Made by a program: the position numbers and the translations under genes. Below are positions 10,205-49,400 of a stretch of 64,000 bases of DNA, in pieces; position 1 is the first letter of the stretch, and each line of letters opens with the position of its first letter. Location of the stretch: positions 3,196,249-3,260,248 of the forward strand of contig NZ_CP156626.1 of assembly GCF_039852015.1 (NCBI RefSeq), in the 5' to 3' direction. Under the pieces are notes generated by a model that worked only from the letters and a program-made list of their open reading frames with translations, did no database searches and had not been told where the DNA came from. The stretch comes from Robbsia sp. KACC 23696. Its GTDB lineage: Bacteria; Pseudomonadota; Gammaproteobacteria; Burkholderiales; Burkholderiaceae.

Positions 10205-11674
10205 ATGTACCTAGGAATCGATCTCGGCACCTCCGAAGTGAAGGTGCTGCTGATGACCGGCGCAGGCCGCATCGTCGGCACGGCGCGCGCTGCGTATGCG
10301 GTGTCGCGTCCCCGCCCGCGCTTCTCCGAACAGGATCCGGCGCTGTGGTGGAACGGCACGCAAGAGGCACTGGCCGCCTTGCGTGCCGCGCACCCGGACG
10401 ACTATGCGCAAATCGCCGGCATCGGTCTGACAGGGCAAATGCACGGCGCCACGTTGCTGGATGCCGACGATACCGTCCTGCGCCCCGCCATTCTCTGGAA
10501 CGATATGCGCAGTGCGGACCAGTGCGCGCAACTGGAAAGCGCCGCGCCCGAGATGCGCGCCATCACAGGCAATATCGCGATGCCGGGTTTCACCGCACCG
10601 AAATTGCTCTGGGTCCGGGAACACGAACCCGAGCTGTTCGCGCGCATCGCCAAGGTCCTGCTGCCCAAGGACTATTTGCGTCTGCTGCTGACCGGCGATT
10701 ATGTATCGGATCCGTCCGATGCAGCGGGGACGCTATGGCTCGATGTCGGGAAACGAAGCTGGTCGGATACGATGTTGGCGGCCTGCGGGCTCACGCGCGA
10801 TCAGATGCCCCGGCTCGTCGAGGGCAGCGATTGCAGCGGCCGTCTGACCGACAAGGCCGCCACGGCACTCGGACTTCGCGCCGGCCTGCCGGTTGCCGGC
10901 GGTGGCGGCGATAACGCCGGCAGCGCGATCGGCATCGGCGCGGCCCGGCCCGGCGACGGCTTTATTTCGCTGGGAACGTCCGGCGTCCTGTTCGTCGTCA
11001 ACGGCCGCTTTCAGCCGAACCCGGACTCGGCGGTGCACGCCTTCTGCCACGCGCTTCCGGATCGCTGGCACCAGATGAGCGTCTTGTTGTCGGCCGCCAG
11101 TTGCCTACGCTGGGCCTGCAAACTGACCGGCGTCGATGAACTCGCGCTGTTGGCCGACGTCGCCACACTCGACACGGCGGCGCGCGATACGGCGCCGCTC
11201 TTCCTGCCCTATCTCTCCGGCGAACGCACACCGCATAACGATCCGTATGCGCAAGGCGTGCTGTTCGGCATCACCCACGAAACGGGGCGGGCGCAGCTCG
11301 GCTATGCCGTGCTCGAAGGGGTCGCGTTCGCGTTAGCGGACGGTCTCGACGCATTGCGTGCCGCCGGCACCGAGGTGCAGGCGCTATCGTTGGTGGGGGG
11401 CGGTTCACGCAGCAACGAATGGGCGCAATTGATCGCCGATACGCTGCAAGTCACGATCCACCAGCATGAAGGCGCCGAAGCCGGCGCGGCGCTGGGCGCG
11501 GCCATTCTGGGCGCACTGGCTGCCGGCGTGGACGAGAAAACGCTGCTGCAGCGGCCGCCGATCCGCGCCTCTTACCAACCAGAGCAATCGCGCCATGCCG
11601 CGTTGCAGCCGCGCTTGAAACGCTATCGCGCCTTGTATCGCGCAACCGCGCCGCTGTTCCGCGACGAGGCTTGA
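10205..11674 (+). CDS. xylB: xylulokinase
   Basis: A FGGY-family sugar kinase of 489 residues, the normal length for xylulokinase. It starts with the phosphate-binding MYLGIDLGTSEVKVLL and carries GLTGQMHGATLLD and PAILWNDMRS, both typical of XylB. The C-terminal FGGY nucleotide-binding motif appears as LVGGGSRSNEWAQLIADTL. It phosphorylates D-xylulose to xylulose 5-phosphate, the step after the dehydrogenase at 8714, and so delivers carbon to the pentose phosphate pathway. It is the last gene of the operon, ending 83 bp before the convergent regulator. Confidence 0.92.
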   Translation: MYLGIDLGTSEVKVLLMTGAGRIVGTARAAYAVSRPRPRFSEQDPALWWNGTQEALAALRAAHPDDYAQIAGIGLTGQMHGATLLDADDTVLRPAILWNDMRSADQCAQLESAAPEMRAITGNIAMPGFTAPKLLWVREHEPELFARIAKVLLPKDYLRLLLTGDYVSDPSDAAGTLWLDVGKRSWSDTMLAACGLTRDQMPRLVEGSDCSGRLTDKAATALGLRAGLPVAGGGGDNAGSAIGIGAARPGDGFISLGTSGVLFVVNGRFQPNPDSAVHAFCHALPDRWHQMSVLLSAASCLRWACKLTGVDELALLADVATLDTAARDTAPLFLPYLSGERTPHNDPYAQGVLFGITHETGRAQLGYAVLEGVAFALADGLDALRAAGTEVQALSLVGGGSRSNEWAQLIADTLQVTIHQHEGAEAGAALGAAILGALAAGVDEKTLLQRPPIRASYQPEQSRHAALQPRLKRYRALYRATAPLFRDEA

Positions 11675-42425: not shown

Positions 42426-42453
42426 TTGACGAAAATGTTGCAGTCGATAAGAT
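42426..42453 (+). promoter_or_regulatory. candidate promoter of the lasso-peptide operon
   Basis: TTGACG (42426-42431) and TAAGAT (42448-42453) are separated by 16 bp, close to a sigma-70 promoter. It lies 33 bp upstream of the B gene start at 42486, whose ribosome site GAGGAA is at 42477-42482. Confidence 0.5.
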
Positions 42454-42485: not shown

Positions 42486-43475
42486 ATGTACCGACATTTG
42501 CAGGCAGGCGTATACATCGCCCCCTTGTGCGAGGGGATGGCGCTGTTGACGATGCACGACGACCAATATTTCCTGCTGAACGAGACGCAGGCGCGCGCGC
42601 TGATGACATTGCTCGGCGGCGTCCCCGCCGATGCGGCCGGCGATCACGCGGCGCTTACCCAATGGACGACCGCCTTCGAAAAGCAGGGGTTGCTGCGGCC
42701 CGGCACCTACGAGCGGGCCGATCCGATGGCCCTCGACGCCGCGTCGCGTAGCGTCACCCCGCTGACCGGCTTCACGGGCTGGCGCCTCAACCCCGAGGAT
42801 CTGGGACCGGGCCTGCCGCTTTGGCTTATCGCACGCGCCTGGTGGGCCATACGGCAATCGCATCGCATCACCGCACGCACGCGGATGCCGGGCTTGCTGC
42901 GCTGGCTCTACGGCGCGACGCGTGCGCGACGCCCGCTTGCGAGACCCTCGCCTTCCGCAACGCCTACCGGCGCGGCCTTGGCGACGGCGGGCGAGGCCGC
43001 GTTCGAGGACGCCGCGCGCTCCACCACGTCGCCTGCCGCGAGCGCCTCATTGCGCGACAGGGCGGCCGTCGGCGCATCGAGCGAATTCAGCGCGCGCCTT
43101 GCCGAACGCGCACGGATCGCGCAGTCGATCAGCGCCTTGAACCGGGCCTGCCTGTTCTATCCGCGGCGCACCAAATGCCTCGAATGGTCCGCGGCGCTCG
43201 TCCACCTATGCCAGCGGCGCGGCGTGGAAGTCGATCTCGTGATCGGTGTGTCAGGCGGTCCCTTCTCCGCACACGCCTGGGTCGAACATGACGGCGCGGT
43301 GGTCGGCGACGACCTCGATCGACGCCGCCAATTCGCCGTCATCGTCGATGGCCAAAGCTGGCGTTGCAGCCCCCGCGACGCCGGGCCGGCGCGTCGTACC
43401 GCTTACCGGCAGCGCAGCGCGAAAGCAATGCCGGGCGCCGCTCGCGCCGCAACGCCGCCCGGTGTCAGCGCTTGA
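42486..43475 (+). CDS. lasso peptide B protein: fused RiPP recognition element and leader peptidase
   Basis: A 329-residue protein. Residues 1-~85 are a PqqD-like RRE (LQAGVYIAPLCEGMALLTMHDDQYFLLNETQARAL), which binds the precursor leader. After a low-complexity Arg/Ala/Ser/Thr-rich insertion (about 140-195), a transglutaminase-like cysteine protease follows: Cys231 in RRTKCLEWSAAL, His263 in GPFSAHAWVE and an Asp about fourteen residues later (VVGDDLD). This fusion is the usual B protein of proteobacterial lasso clusters and removes the leader to free the N-terminal Gly. GAGGAA precedes ATG 42486. The cyclase gene begins 97 bp after the stop. The insertion is larger than in the B proteins I can recall. 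Confidence 0.88.
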   Translation: MYRHLQAGVYIAPLCEGMALLTMHDDQYFLLNETQARALMTLLGGVPADAAGDHAALTQWTTAFEKQGLLRPGTYERADPMALDAASRSVTPLTGFTGWRLNPEDLGPGLPLWLIARAWWAIRQSHRITARTRMPGLLRWLYGATRARRPLARPSPSATPTGAALATAGEAAFEDAARSTTSPAASASLRDRAAVGASSEFSARLAERARIAQSISALNRACLFYPRRTKCLEWSAALVHLCQRRGVEVDLVIGVSGGPFSAHAWVEHDGAVVGDDLDRRRQFAVIVDGQSWRCSPRDAGPARRTAYRQRSAKAMPGAARAATPPGVSA

Positions 43476-43572
43476 ACGCTTGAACGATGCATCCGCCCCG
43501 TCGACCGCCACCGTCGATCGCGCGTCCTTCACGCGCGCTGTCCCTTCTTCCTCGCTTCCCTCAGGAGCCGTC

Positions 43573-45513
43573 ATGCTCGCAATCCGCTTGGGTCCGCCGA
43601 CATCCCCGCCCGCCGATGAAACGGCTGCTACATCGGCAGCCGCCGCGTCGCACGCACTGCAGTGGGGCGGCGATCACGACCGCATCACATTGACGCTGCA
43701 CATCGCGGGAGACGATGCCGACCCGCCACGGCTGGCACAAGGCACACACCGCGGTCATCGCTGGATCTGCGTGGGCGCGCTGTTCGACGTCGTCACGCAC
43801 GCGCGGGTTCGCCCCGAAACGGTCGTGCCATGGGTGGTGGACGATCCGGAATGGCTGGCCGCTCATTGCTGGGGGCTGTATCGATTGGTGGTCTTCCGGG
43901 AGGAGGATGCAATGCTGCGCCTGTATATCGATCCATGCGGCCAGCGACCGATGTATTTTCAGCAAGTCGGCAGCGAGACGCCCGACACGACGCGGCGCCC
44001 CGCCGTCTACCTCGCATCGGACGTGCCGACCTTGATACGCATCACGCCCCAGGCTGCCGCCACCCCGGACATGCACTTTCTGCACAGCATGCTGTTGCAT
44101 GGCAACGGCACCGAAGGACGCACTGCCTTGCTCGGTATCGACAGCGTTCCACTCGGCGGCATGCTCGAAGCCCGTCCGGGACAGCCGGTGCAATGCAGCG
44201 AAGTATGGCGACCGTTGCGCGCGGACAGCCCCTACGCGGCACTGCGTCGAATCGATCCGACGAAGGCCGCGACCTTGCCGCAACGTATCGACATGGCGCA
44301 ATCCCCGCGCCTGTCGGATCGTCTGGCGGCGCGCGACGATGCGCTGTCACTCGATGCGTTTCGTCTGCTGCAAACCGTGACCGATGCCTATCTGTCGAGC
44401 GTGCCCGCGGATCCGACGGTACTGGAACTGTCGGGCGGCCTTGAGTCCAGCGCACTCGCGTTGGCACTTCACGAGGCCGGCCGCACGCAGGATCTGACCG
44501 GCATCAATCACTTCGATCACGCGTCGCCCGCCTCCAATGAAATCGTCTATGCACAGGCCGTCAGCGATCATTGCGGCTTTGCGCTACGAACGATGCCGAT
44601 GGACATGGCGCCCTATGCGCCACCGCAGGCGTTGGCGACGACGGCATCGATGCCGCGACACCCCCGACCCTCGCAGGGCAGCATCATGCTGAACTGGTCC
44701 CAACAACTGCGCGAACGCACGGCGGATCTGAGCGGGGCGACCCACCTCAACGGCTATGGCGGCGATGCCGGATTTCTTGCGCCGCCCTACTTCAGCACCT
44801 GGCTCGACGCGGTGCATGACGGCGCCTGGCGACGCGCGCCGATGGCGATCCATGACATGGCGCTGCTCCGGCGCACGCCGTATTGGCAGGTCATCCGGCA
44901 AGGTTGGAAGGAGAGCCGGTCGCGCAATCTCGACGACATGATTCAGTCGGCGCCGCCCGCCACGATTCGGATCGATACGCCCTGCCCGTCCCCGGATCGG
45001 CTCGGACAACTGCCCGCCTTGCGTGCCTTGCTGCGACGACAACCGGGCAAGCATATGCAATTGCTCGGCCTGATGGGAAACCTCGCCGAGATCGAGATGT
45101 ATCCGGATCTGGGTTTCAAGCGCAGTTTCTTTCCTTATCTGACGCAGCCGATGATCGAATACGTCTTGAATTACCCGAGTTATGCGTTGTACAGCCGTTT
45201 CCACAACCGCGTACCGATGCGACGCGCCGCCTTCGCGGCGTCTGGCATGCCGCATCTATGGCGCCGAGACAAGGGCGAAACGTCGGGGCCGTTTACGCGG
45301 GGCTGGCGCGAGAACGCAGACCATATTCGACAGGTCGTCATGGAGGGCTGGTGCGCCCAAGCCGGCCTCGTCGATCGCGACGCCTGCGATCGCGCGACCC
45401 GACTCGCTATCAGCGGTTTTCGACCGCCCGATCTGTCACTCGACCGGATCTATGCCTGCGAGATGTTCATGCAGGCCTGGCAGTCCCGTTCGCTCGCACC
45501 GGCGAGCCGTTGA
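43573..45513 (+). CDS. lasso peptide C protein: asparagine-synthetase-like macrolactam cyclase
   Basis: A 646-residue protein. The N-terminal ~220 residues resemble the glutaminase half of asparagine synthetase but lack the N-terminal catalytic Cys (WGLYRLVVF...DPCGQRPMYF). The C-terminal ATP-pyrophosphatase domain has the PP-loop LELSGGLESSALAL around residue 287, with Glu at the usual Asp, and HLNGYGGDAGF near residue 394, plus a late Lys in RRDKGETSG. It adenylates the Glu8 side chain of the core and closes the ring with the freed N-terminal amine. ATG 43573 with AGGAG upstream is the start; the frame to 43246 overlaps B and is not used. The precursors follow. Confidence 0.88.
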   Translation: MLAIRLGPPTSPPADETAATSAAAASHALQWGGDHDRITLTLHIAGDDADPPRLAQGTHRGHRWICVGALFDVVTHARVRPETVVPWVVDDPEWLAAHCWGLYRLVVFREEDAMLRLYIDPCGQRPMYFQQVGSETPDTTRRPAVYLASDVPTLIRITPQAAATPDMHFLHSMLLHGNGTEGRTALLGIDSVPLGGMLEARPGQPVQCSEVWRPLRADSPYAALRRIDPTKAATLPQRIDMAQSPRLSDRLAARDDALSLDAFRLLQTVTDAYLSSVPADPTVLELSGGLESSALALALHEAGRTQDLTGINHFDHASPASNEIVYAQAVSDHCGFALRTMPMDMAPYAPPQALATTASMPRHPRPSQGSIMLNWSQQLRERTADLSGATHLNGYGGDAGFLAPPYFSTWLDAVHDGAWRRAPMAIHDMALLRRTPYWQVIRQGWKESRSRNLDDMIQSAPPATIRIDTPCPSPDRLGQLPALRALLRRQPGKHMQLLGLMGNLAEIEMYPDLGFKRSFFPYLTQPMIEYVLNYPSYALYSRFHNRVPMRRAAFAASGMPHLWRRDKGETSGPFTRGWRENADHIRQVVMEGWCAQAGLVDRDACDRATRLAISGFRPPDLSLDRIYACEMFMQAWQSRSLAPASR

Positions 45514-45813
45514 GCAGGCATCAAGGATGGACGCACGGCATGCGCGGGGTGCAGTATCCGCCCCATACATCCCCTTGAAAAATAGCGCACTTCGATCTCG
45601 AAACAAGCCAGTCTCAAAAACGATTCCGCCGCTTGCTTCGTGATGCGAATCGAATGCGCCGCCTCCGGACGGATGATTCAGCATTTTGTTCTTCACCCCG
45701 CAGTTGCGCTTGCCCCTGGCGCTTTTAAAATGGGCCTTGTCAGACAGGCATGCGTGAGCAGGCGCTGAAGGACAGCAAGGCATCCATCGTCATCGGCAGC
45801 AACAGGAGGCGTC
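45514..45813. promoter_or_regulatory. gap between the cyclase and the precursor genes
   Basis: Exactly 300 bp with no convincing gene. TTGCGC (45704-45709) and TAAAAT (45726-45731), 16 bp apart, may form a promoter giving the precursors extra transcription apart from B and C. The -35 element matches poorly. No terminator was seen between the cyclase and the precursors, so read-through is also possible. Confidence 0.35.
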
Positions 45814-45969
45814 ATGCAGGATCAATTGCGCAAAGGAAGGATCGAGGACCGGCGCACGGATGACACCGAGCAGATGCTGTTTGGTGACGCCTTCACGAGC
45901 CATTTTCAACGGAAAACAGACGATGACAAGGAACCCCTCGTCCGCGCGTATCCGCCTGACGGGCATTAA
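45814..45969 (+). CDS. small charged ORF ahead of the lasso precursors, unknown
   Basis: A 51-codon frame with an almost perfect ribosome site (AGGAGG at 45804-45809, four bases before ATG 45814). The product is hydrophilic and rich in Asp, Arg and Lys, starts MQDQLRKGRIEDRR and ends VRAYPPDGH. It has no signal peptide and no similarity to the precursor peptides. It overlaps the start of the first precursor (45923) in another frame. Since that precursor has a weak ribosome site, translation may be coupled. It could be a real small protein, such as immunity or a partner, or only a translated leader. No family is recognised. Confidence 0.4.
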   Translation: MQDQLRKGRIEDRRTDDTEQMLFGDAFTSHFQRKTDDDKEPLVRAYPPDGH

Positions 45970-46039
45970 CGCCACCGAGGCGACGCAGGGCATGAACGGC
46001 GTCGTCCTCGAAGGCGTGCAAGGCCGCTTCAGCGTCTGA
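45923..46039 (+). CDS. lasso peptide precursor A1
   Basis: A 38-residue precursor. The leader is about 22 residues, ending RLTGINATEATQ, with Thr at -2 of the predicted cleavage site. The predicted core is GMNGVVLEGVQGRFSV (16 residues). Gly1 and Glu8 give an eight-residue macrolactam ring; the tail has Arg13/Phe14 as possible plugs. It diverges most from A2 and A3 in the tail. The local ribosome site is weak (GGAAAA), and the frame is open upstream to a GTG at 45884, so the exact start is uncertain. Assignment rests on B and C being adjacent and on the leader shared with A2 and A3. Confidence 0.78.
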   Translation: MTRNPSSARIRLTGINATEATQGMNGVVLEGVQGRFSV

Positions 46040-46073
46040 TCGATGCGGAAGTGTGATCCAACGCCAAAGACCC

Positions 46074-46079
46074 AAGGAG
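46074..46079 (+). promoter_or_regulatory. strong ribosome binding site of precursor A2
   Basis: AAGGAG at 46074-46079 lies five bases before ATG 46085 and eight before ATG 46088, so either Met codon can be used. It marks A2 as efficiently translated and supports reading this tiny frame as a gene. Confidence 0.75.
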
Positions 46080-46084
46080 TGAGA

Positions 46085-46192
46085 ATGATGATCGAACTAC
46101 ACGGCATTACGGCTACGCGCGCAACCCAAGGCTTGATCGGTCTCGTACCGGAAAGCACCACCGGCTATTTCCTGTTCGAGGGGGCGCAATAA
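46085..46192 (+). CDS. lasso peptide precursor A2
   Basis: A 35-residue precursor (34 if ATG 46088 is used). The leader is only 14-15 residues, ELHGITATRATQ at its end, with Thr at -2. The predicted core is GLIGLVPESTTGYFLFEGAQ (20 residues): Gly1 to Glu8 ring, then a 12-residue tail in which Tyr13 and Phe14 could lock the thread. No Cys is in the core, so it would be a class II lasso peptide. The stop codon overlaps the A3 start (TAATG), giving coupled translation. It is very similar to A3, so the pair looks like a tandem duplication. Confidence 0.88.
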   Translation: MMIELHGITATRATQGLIGLVPESTTGYFLFEGAQ

Positions 46193-46302
46193 TGACGACA
46201 TGCGCACTGCAAGGCGTGGTTGCCACACAGGCGACGCAAGGCTTACTCGGTTTGGTTCCGGAAAGCGGCACCGGTTACTTCCTGATCGAAGGTAGTCACT
46301 AA
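46192..46302 (+). CDS. lasso peptide precursor A3
   Basis: A 36-residue precursor. The leader is 16 residues, ending ALQGVVATQATQ, with Thr at -2; it contains one Cys, which the core lacks. The predicted core is GLLGLVPESGTGYFLIEGSH (20 residues), with the Gly1 to Glu8 ring identical in plan to A2 (ring GLLGLVPE against GLIGLVPE). GAGGGGG seven bases upstream, inside the A2 coding end, serves as ribosome site. A strong GC hairpin 18 bp after the stop ends the operon. Confidence 0.88.
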   Translation: MTTCALQGVVATQATQGLLGLVPESGTGYFLIEGSH

Positions 46303-46320
46303 GCGGTATTGACAGCAGTC

Positions 46321-46354
46321 CGGCGCCGCGCCGTTCTTCTGCGGCGCGGCGCCG
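46321..46354. terminator. strong hairpin ending the lasso operon
   Basis: A perfect 13-bp GC stem CGGCGCCGCGCCG/CGGCGCGGCGCCG with an eight-base loop, between A3 and the convergent helicase gene. There is no T-tract, so it may work as a bidirectional structural stop or protect the 3' end of the precursor mRNA. Confidence 0.7.
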
Positions 46355-46426
46355 AATCGCACAGTGAGAAGTCGCGCCGGGACGAAGGCCGTCCTCCCCC
46401 GTTTGGCCTTTCGGTCCGCGTGCTTT

Positions 46427-49400
46427 TCACGAAGGTCGCGTCTGCACCAGCAGACTTCGCGCGCGTTCCCGCGCCTCTGGCAAGGCTGCCGAGGCGAAAT
46501 GGAACGTGCCGGCTTCAAGCCATCCCATTGGGATACCATCGCAATAGGCGATACGATTCGCCAACGTCGATGCGATCCGATTGCCGGCGATGACGATGCC
46601 GACGAGATTCAAAGGATCCGCGGCCGAGATCACCGTCCATATCTCACCGTTCGGACGGCGCCGTATATCACGCAACAACGGCAACGCTTCCGGCAAGGCG
46701 AACTGCTCGCCACTCAGCCCTTCGACAAAACGCCCTCCCCGTATTTCGCCACGCGCTTCCAGTCGCCGATAGACCATCAACAGGTCGCGCCACGGCGGCA
46801 CGCCATCCGCCTCGCGCTCGAGCAACCGCCAGCAGATCACGCCATAGCGCCGCAACAGGGTCCAGGCCACGTGCTCACGTATCTCATCGTCGGAGACGTG
46901 CGCCACTTCGTCCGCGCCCGATGTCGGCATGCGCGCCCAACGCCCGGCGTCGTCCATGCCGCCGCTGACGCGGACATGCTGGCGACGGCCGCGTGGCCCT
47001 GCCCCCTGGCCACCCCACGGGTTGCGACGCGCGACGGGCGCCAGCAAGGCGCGCAGCCCGGCAAAACTGTCGGCATGCACCAAGCCGTGCGCGACCAGCT
47101 CGCCCAACGCCGTTTCCAGCTCCGTCGGCAATAGCCGCAGGGCATCGGACAAGGTATCGAAAAAGGACGGCCCGCGCGTATCGATATGCGTGTAGACGGC
47201 CTGCGCGCGCGAGGAAAGCGATGACAGCAGCGAAGGTGCCGGCCCGGCGGGATCACCGATGTCGGCGATGACGTTGCTGTCGCGCGCGGCGGCACGGCGC
47301 CATACGCCCAGATCCTGACGCGGTACGAGGACGATCGCACTCGCGCGCACCAACCCCGCGGGACCGCCGGCGTTCGCGCGACTGGCCGTACTCGCGAGCC
47401 TTGCCCATGTCACGCGTCCGGAACGGCTCAGTGTGTCCAACCAGCCGCGCTCGTAGTCGGCACATCGGGCGGGCAGAATCTGCTCCTCCCACGCCGACGC
47501 GGACGCCGCATACCCTTCGAGCTGCGTCACCACGTCTTCGAGCGCGGCCGGTCCGCGTCCACGCGTGCTCTCGGCAACCCGCTGCCACTCGAACAGAAAG
47601 CGCATGAAATCGCGCGGCGCCACCGGCTCTATTTCACGCCGCAGACGCTGTACCGTATAGCGATGAATCCGTGCCAGCAGGCTTCGCTCGCACCACTCCT
47701 CTCTTTCGCTGACCGGGAGATCGACCGCTGCCGCATCCGATGGATGCGGCGAGAAATGGCCGCGCACGACCGTGCCGCGCCCTTCGAGGGCGATCAAAGC
47801 GGCGGCCACCACGGACGCCGGCAACGCGAGTGGACGCGCGAGATGGCCCACGGTCACGGGACCGAAACCGCTGAGGCGGGCCTGGATCAGTTCGATCAAT
47901 GCGGCGTCGGCATCCGCCGGAACGCGTGTCGCCGGCGTCGCATGCACGACCGCCAGCGCCGCCTTCGACCAGCGAAGATCGGGATAGACCGTGTGGATCA
48001 GCGCCGCTCGCTCTCGCGCAAACCACACCGTTTCCGCCTGCCCCTGATCGCGGGCCACCACCACGTGGAAGGCATGACCAGAGCGCGCCAGCTTCTGCAG
48101 CAATGCCAGCCAGTCGATCTCGGCGTCCCCGTCCTGTTGTGCGTGACCCGATCCGCGGCTAGCCTCGTTTTCGGTGATGCAGCCCAGCCGCATCAACGCC
48201 TCCTGCATCTCGTCGACATCGCGCACCCGCGGCCAGGCCTCCGCCCGCACGGCGGCGATGGCCTCGCTATCCAGCGCGCCCAGATCGTCGGCCGACTCCG
48301 GGTCGGTCCATTGCCGGCGCATCACCGCTTGCGTGCGTCGCTCTTCGAGCGGCGCATCGTCGAGAAAAGCATAGGGCCGTGCGTGCAGAATTTCCGCTGC
48401 CATCGGCGACGGTGCCGGCAGATCGCGCGCGATCAACTGGATGTCGCCGGCCTCCATGCGCCGCAGCAGCGCCAGCCAGCCGTCGCAGTCCATCGCTTCG
48501 TGCAGGCAGTCGTCCAGCGTCTGGTCCACGAGCGGATGATCGGGCAGTTCCCTTTCGCCGACGATGTTTTCAAGACAGGCCGCCTGATCCGGAAAGACCG
48601 TCGCGAGCAGATCCTCGCTTTTCATCCGCTGCAGTTGCGGGGCCACCTTGCGACCGCCAACCTGTCGCGGCAACGCCAACGCCGTCGTTGCATTCCAGCG
48701 CCAGCGCACACCGAACAACGGCGCATCGAGCAAGGCCTGAATCAGGACACGTTCCGCGCTCGCGCTATGCAGATAACGCCATACCTCGTCGAGCGGGAAA
48801 CTGTGACTGGTCGACAAGGACAGGACGATGGCATCCTCGGTGGCGGCCGCCTGCAGTTCGACATTGAAATGTCGGCAAAAGCGTTTGCGCAGCGCCAGAC
48901 CCCAGGCACGGTTCACGCGACTGCCGTACGGTGCGTGCAGGACCAGTTGCATGCCGCCGGACGCATCGAAAAAGCGCTCCATGACGAGCGTATCGCGCGT
49001 CGGAAGGGCGGACAGGGCCGCATAGCTTCGCGCGAGATAATCGGCGATCTGGCGGGCGGCGATGTCTCCCACGCCCGGGATTCGTCCCACCACCGACACC
49101 ACGGCATCGACCAGGCCGGGATTAGAAACCGGGAGATCGATCGCGGCGTCGCGGGCGATGTCGGCGGCGCTGCGATACGCGGCGATCGCCTGCGCGACGG
49201 ACGCGCGCAGCCGCGCGACGCCTTCGGACAACGCGTCGCTGCGGCCGGGCGCTTCGCCGAGCCAGAACGGGATGTTCGGCGGCTGGCCCTGGGCGTCGGC
49301 GACGCGCACCTTGCCCGCCTCGATCTTCATGATGCGATAGGACGTATTGCCCAACTGGAAGACATCGCCGGCCAGGCTCTCGACGGCAAAGTCCTCATGC

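Follow-up and report, generated by a model that had tools for sequence, protein, structure and literature searches.

A stretch of 64,000 nucleotides from Robbsia sp. KACC 23696 (contig NZ_CP156626.1, positions 3,196,249 to 3,260,248; hereafter the window) contains six plus-strand genes in the order B, C, ORF1, A1, A2, A3 (Table 1), which very probably make up a working lasso-peptide cluster of class II (cores free of cysteine) from a divergent lineage of the Burkholderiaceae. As a prediction from the sequence, the lasso identity is firm. The initial annotation of this DNA had described a fused RRE/cysteine-protease B protein, an asparagine-synthetase-like C protein and three tiny genes; the open reading frames (ORFs) are as described, and the lasso assignment was supported by B and C family matches, the catalytic motifs, a precursor motif above background, and conservation of the whole set in Robbsia andropogonis. 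The genes, their conservation, the intact catalytic motifs, the precursor motifs and the gene order are direct observations. ORF1, which overlaps A1, and the hairpin after A3 were absent from the initial annotation. The novelty lies in how the genes are ordered, in ORF1, in the shortness of the leaders, in the combination of unlike cores with a single enzyme pair, and in a core shared with distant clusters.

Table 1. Features of the predicted lasso-peptide cluster in the window, with the fourth precursor of R. andropogonis
Feature	Position	Strand	Description	Evidence or remark
Candidate B-C promoter	42426..42453	+	candidate sigma-70 promoter of the B-C operon, TTGACG-16-TAAGAT	hexamers and spacing identical at L003 233-260, R. 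andropogonis
B	42486..43475	+	fused RRE and cysteine protease, predicted leader peptidase	family matches, kept catalytic residues
C	43573..45513	+	asparagine-synthetase-like lasso cyclase	family matches, SGGLESS motif, tree
Candidate second promoter	45704..45731	+	before the precursor block, TTGCGC-16-TAAAAT	alignment with R. andropogonis; weak
ORF1	45814..45969	+	conserved 51-codon gene, strong AGGAGG site	overlaps A1 in another frame
A1	45923..46039	+	precursor, 22-aa leader from ATG 45923, core GMNGVVLEGVQGRFSV	precursor motif, codon-position differences
A2	46085..46192	+	precursor, leader of 14 aa (start 46088) or 15 aa (start 46085), core GLIGLVPESTTGYFLFEGAQ	precursor motif, dN/dS
A3	46192..46302	+	precursor, 16-aa leader, core GLLGLVPESGTGYFLIEGSH	precursor motif, dN/dS
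Hairpin	46321..46354	+	strong GC hairpin after A3, possible transcript end	folding energy
A4 (R. andropogonis)	L003 4132-4233		fourth precursor, core GGSGQYREAGVGRFL	overlaps A3 stop

Enzymes, precursors and their conservation

The enzymes were compared with homologues in the same family, among which the groups g8, g18 and g11 are taken to be Mycetohabitans, Mycoavidus and Pandoraea, partly on the basis of known cores (burhizin, capistruin, and pandonodin). B, a protein of 329 amino acids (aa), matched NCBIfam lasso_biosyn_B2 above its cut-off (E 2e-25, residues 166-287). The B alignment, from which three short B frames (L040, L062, and the second one in L050) were left out, has 35 rows, and 32 of them retain Cys231, His263 and Asp275; the other three (L038, L054, and L060) are short or broken in this region. 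The spacing of this triad presumably equals that of McjB, and the motif TKCLEW is common to the window and the burhizin-type (g8 and g18) loci. C (646 aa) matched Pfam Asn_synthase above the cut-off (E 5.7e-8) and an NCBIfam macrolactam-cyclase subfamily below the cut-off of that model (E 9.3e-27). The C motif SGGLESS is identical in the 10 g8 and g18 rows, and its Glu, an Asp in capistruin-type rows, is no defect, because it was also found in 16 of 17 g11 rows. The peptidase with RRE and transglutaminase-like cysteine protease and the cyclase with ATP-binding motif that define lasso clusters are both present. According to the accessible text of PMC5067487, a fused B is ordinary in proteobacteria.

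All three predicted cores have Gly1 and Glu8 with Thr at -2, as had been noted, and in all three precursors position -8 is hydrophobic and position -6 is Ala. The positions -8, -6 and -2 are occupied in the same way in capistruin-type and burhizin-type precursors; one precursor scan found the -8/-6 pattern without requiring either position, and the motif used for the gene-order count described below requires both. Among short ORFs with a Shine-Dalgarno-like site, T-x-G-x6-E followed by a tail of 13-25 residues was present in 0 of 774 in 380 kb of the same genome and in 3 of 7 in 45514-46430, the three behind C being the only ones among 114 in the whole window. When the leader motif was added and Asp or Glu was allowed at 7-9, no background match was obtained in 760,000 strand-bases. 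The general lasso precursor pattern (Thr at -2; Gly, Ala, Ser or Cys at 1; Asp or Glu at 7-9) is likewise present in all three, and the predicted cores are cysteine-free, in agreement with the proposed class II. The description of the precursors as triplicate holds for A2 and A3, which are near copies; A1 has a core of another kind. For A1, the scan rules also gave leaders of 43 and 45 residues, from upstream starts in an unconserved frame.

The R. andropogonis cluster lies in the same place with the same two flanking neighbors, and its B and C are 67% and 75% identical to those of the window. It is carried by the same-genus genome G002; the named copy is that of Robbsia andropogonis ICMP2807 (L007), and a scan of named genomes gave one locus, in R. 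andropogonis. Between the two species, the nonsynonymous/synonymous divergence pairs (dN/dS) were 0.263/1.236 for B, 0.174/1.367 for C, 0.114/0.487 for A2 (34 codons), and 0.237/1.56 for A3 (36 codons), the values of the small genes being rough. By codon position, the divergence suggests that B, C, ORF1, A2, and A3 are under selection; for A1 the signal is weak.

That B and C act on a precursor elsewhere, which the initial annotation had named as grounds for abandoning its interpretation, found no support. The genome has one B and one C homologue at E 0.001, and a search of it with an A2/A3 profile, which covers A2/A3-like sequences, gave no precursor outside this locus. Over 359 family genomes, the profile matched at two Robbsia loci only, in three places each.

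In the proposed pathway, the RRE of B would bind the short leader of each precursor, the B protease would cut after the conserved Thr-x, and C would activate Glu8 with ATP and couple it to Gly1, by then the N-terminus, so that a ring of 8 residues encloses the tail. The [M+2H]2+ values calculated for the dehydrated cores of A1, A2 and A3 are 815.92, 1041.03 and 1014.53. This division of labor between B and C is established for the family. One enzyme pair would serve three precursors with two kinds of core, encoded in a block behind B and C that perhaps has its own promoter, in which case the precursors could be made in excess of the enzymes. For this cluster, we infer that the precursors are translated, cleaved, cyclized and threaded, that the promoters are used and that there is a biological role.

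Several results weigh against this interpretation. The PqqD-like (RRE) match of B (residues 8-52, E 4.6e-5) lies below the cut-off of its model, all lasso or related cyclase models of NCBIfam match C only below their cut-offs, and searching the PDB by sequence returned nothing relevant for B and nothing for C. Since the leaders of A2 and A3 are much shorter than the leaders of related precursors, it is uncertain whether the RRE recognizes them. With the length depending on the start codon chosen, the leaders of A2, A3, and A4 (the fourth precursor of R. andropogonis) in both Robbsia have 15-18 residues by both rules applied (14 for A2 of the window if it starts at 46088), and those at other family loci have 26-46 by the order-count rule and mostly 26-31 by that of the other precursor scan. 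The A1 divergence from R. andropogonis (dN 0.149, dS 0.27) is a weak selection signal, because A1 overlaps ORF1. The cluster had also been called complete, which is true of A, B, and C only; by eye, nothing beside it among the ORFs at 40-50 kb was recognized as a transporter, immunity or isopeptidase gene, with no family search on neighbors or genome.

ORF1 and alternative explanations

ORF1 is 57% identical to its R. andropogonis counterpart without gaps, with a dN/dS pair of 0.247/0.786 (0.229/1.185 for the first 36 codons). Before the A1 overlap, the differences are distributed 9/4/17 over the codon positions, and 22 of 35 residues are identical in its own frame, compared to 15 and 13 of 35 in the two remaining forward frames, both interrupted by stops in at least one of the species. 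No convincing homologue was found outside Robbsia in 398 family genomes. Matches at E 0.1 occurred in 36 of them, two being Robbsia (E 1e-34); those in the other 34 (E 0.003-0.1) were attributed to chance, with 29 of the 36 rows lying inside open frames of at least 100 aa. ORF1 as a precursor itself was dropped, as it has no T-x-G...E motif. The likeliest role of ORF1 is that of a small accessory protein or of a lead-in whose translation serves A1. Split leader recognition is a long shot: A1-A3 would retain only the cleavage-proximal part of the leader and ORF1 would supply the RRE-binding part in trans, letting one enzyme pair process cores of different families. No less speculatively, such an arrangement would also cover the R. 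andropogonis core that is identical to one encoded elsewhere beside a distant synthetase.

The overlap of 47 bases with ORF1, the lack of a clear Shine-Dalgarno site of its own, and the poorly conserved N-terminal half of its leader would also fit A1 being an old precursor in the process of loss inside ORF1, with B and C real and A2 and A3 their only substrates. This is unlikely, though worth weighing: in the part of A1 beyond ORF1 the differences are 1/1/5 by codon position, both species retain Gly1, Glu8, and Thr(-2), and the leader of a precursor from another lineage (L049) ends in the same NATEATQ. The only strong ribosome site just before A1 belongs to ORF1, and A1 sits in the frame that a +1 shift from ORF1 would join, so that ORF1 and A1 could be conceived as one gene read by programmed +1 frameshift, ORF1 being the true leader of A1. 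We consider this highly improbable given that the in-frame ATG of A1 is conserved in both species, that A2 and A3 manage with leaders of 14-16 residues, and that no slippery site was noticed at ORF1/A1, without a dedicated search.

Decay of the cluster, with enzymes present and the product no longer made, would be consistent with the fourth precursor missing in the window, with the lack of a recognized transporter, and with a third Robbsia genome (G001) in which neither B nor C was found. In the G001 stretch, the Lhr gene was matched and aroM, B, and C were unmatched; as Lhr alone matched there, no clean empty site can be read. All frames of the cluster are intact, and B and C have dN values far lower than their dS values, which makes decay a very remote prospect compared to a working lasso-peptide cluster.

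Candidate transcription signals, flanking genes and the fourth precursor

Promoter-type sites were near chance in number (2 found, shuffle mean 1.0), and the support for the candidate B-C promoter is therefore its conservation. The candidate second promoter, whose R. andropogonis counterpart reads TTGCGC-16-TAATAT, is a weak call because the consensus scan did not detect it. The start of A3 overlaps the stop of A2 by one base (TAATG). For the 66-base stretch 46300-46365 with the hairpin, the minimum free energy was -40.4 kcal/mol (z -5.68). The consensus scan called just a short terminator-like stem inside the hairpin, which has no U tract and is therefore not a textbook terminator. The next gene past the cluster is on the minus strand with its 3' end at 46427. 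The flanking genes, both on the minus strand, are presumably an aroM-like gene upstream and an Lhr-type helicase gene downstream, names assigned by reading the sequences. Beyond the aroM-like gene, at 39-41.6 kb, are ABC genes that resemble an amino-acid importer.

The hairpin occupies the place of the fourth precursor of R. andropogonis, and the window itself has no A4-type core. The 15-residue core of A4 is identical to cores in one g8 locus (L057) and two g18 loci (L052 and L059), with codons that differ from those of R. andropogonis at 10, 11, and 13 of the 15 positions. The A4 leader of 18 residues is quite unlike the leaders of the loci with the identical core, and the R. andropogonis cyclase is on a branch distant from the g8 and g18 cyclases despite the shared core. 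An identical core with so many different codons suggests long selection on the exact peptide, hence an undiscovered function. The core is probably mycetohabin-15, an assignment made by length and genus. The name mycetohabin-15 appears in the accessible parts of PMC12696581 and PMC7549694.

Gene order and related lasso-peptide systems

A search for C homologues at E 1e-20 gave 44 places, spread over 39 of the 398 family genomes and including those in Robbsia. The gene-order count took 40 of the 42 non-Robbsia places (one each in G019 and G145 was left out) and applied the same precursor motif to both sides of B and C. Precursors were found upstream of B at 31 of these loci and downstream at none, with no match at nine, and downstream only at both Robbsia loci. 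The initial claim that the precursor usually precedes B and C and here follows them was thus borne out; the proteobacterial A-B-C(-D) arrangement, with the precursor upstream of B, does not apply to Robbsia. Two of the nine unmatched loci (L044 and L046) have upstream candidates under looser rules. The motif scan of both sides gave no credible precursor in L038, L039, L040, L045, L056, L060, and L063, and some unmatched loci lack a complete B or are close to the end of a contig (L060). Strings that look like chance matches, seen on the downstream side in L046, L054, and L063 and on the upstream side in L048, L063, and L068, have no leader motif and were rejected.

The classical proteobacterial ABC architecture is mentioned in the accessible text of PMC12670498; the accessible parts of PMC13352647, PMC8498205, and PMC7533575 contain nothing on gene order in these clusters. 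The accessible passages of open-access papers on Robbsia or andropogonis and lasso peptides contain no account of this cluster. The accessible part of the survey PMC8506256 reports lassopeptide clusters as completely absent in Robbsia (0/1 species), and the cluster adds a divergent lasso synthetase lineage to a genus scored lasso-free there. The natural leaders of 14-18 residues (A2, A3, and A4 of R. andropogonis) would offer a test of the minimal leader for a lasso enzyme, and unlike cores beside one B-C pair would offer a natural test of core tolerance.

In the C tree, made by a quick method, the two Robbsia proteins are on a long branch (1.45) beside g11 (SH-aLRT 93) and apart from the g8/g18 clade, with a warning of the tree program that long branches meet at Robbsia/g11 and may be falsely joined. 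A search for C relatives beyond the family, at E 1e-40, hit a single one of 369 genomes from the class, namely that of the window, and among plasmids two Sphingopyxis records matched C with 27% identity over 46% of its length.

Some g11 loci look degraded: no B frame was found in L041 and L045 and a short one in L038 and L040, and L038, L040, and L045 also have no precursor match. In L044 of the same group, one ORF upstream of B and C (10975-11319, minus strand) reads leader-core-leader-core. Its units are SIDATHATQ/GGGGQENE... and STDATQATK/GYDGNWFE..., two predicted lasso cores in one polypeptide. Among the papers listed on lasso peptides with multiple or two core peptides, no title concerns such a precursor.

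The pandonodin-type (g11) clusters have the C nearest to that of Robbsia, subject to the long-branch warning, and leader ends like VDATHATR resemble the Robbsia VVATQATQ. They differ by a precursor upstream in 12 of 17 loci, with a 27-aa leader and a 33-aa core with Cys, compared to three downstream precursors, short leaders and no Cys in Robbsia. Capistruin-type clusters of Burkholderia, which we take to be such from the capistruin core, likewise have a fused B, a cyclase C and a leader with Leu(-8), Ala(-6), and Thr(-2), but the order A-B-C in 4 of 4 loci and a distant C; the ring residue of capistruin is Asp9. The burhizin/mycetohabin clusters (g8 and g18) share with Robbsia the C motifs SGGLESS and KGETSG (KGETTG in L068) and the B motif noted above, whereas their precursors are upstream in 10 of 10 loci, their leaders have at least 26 aa, and their C is on a separate branch.

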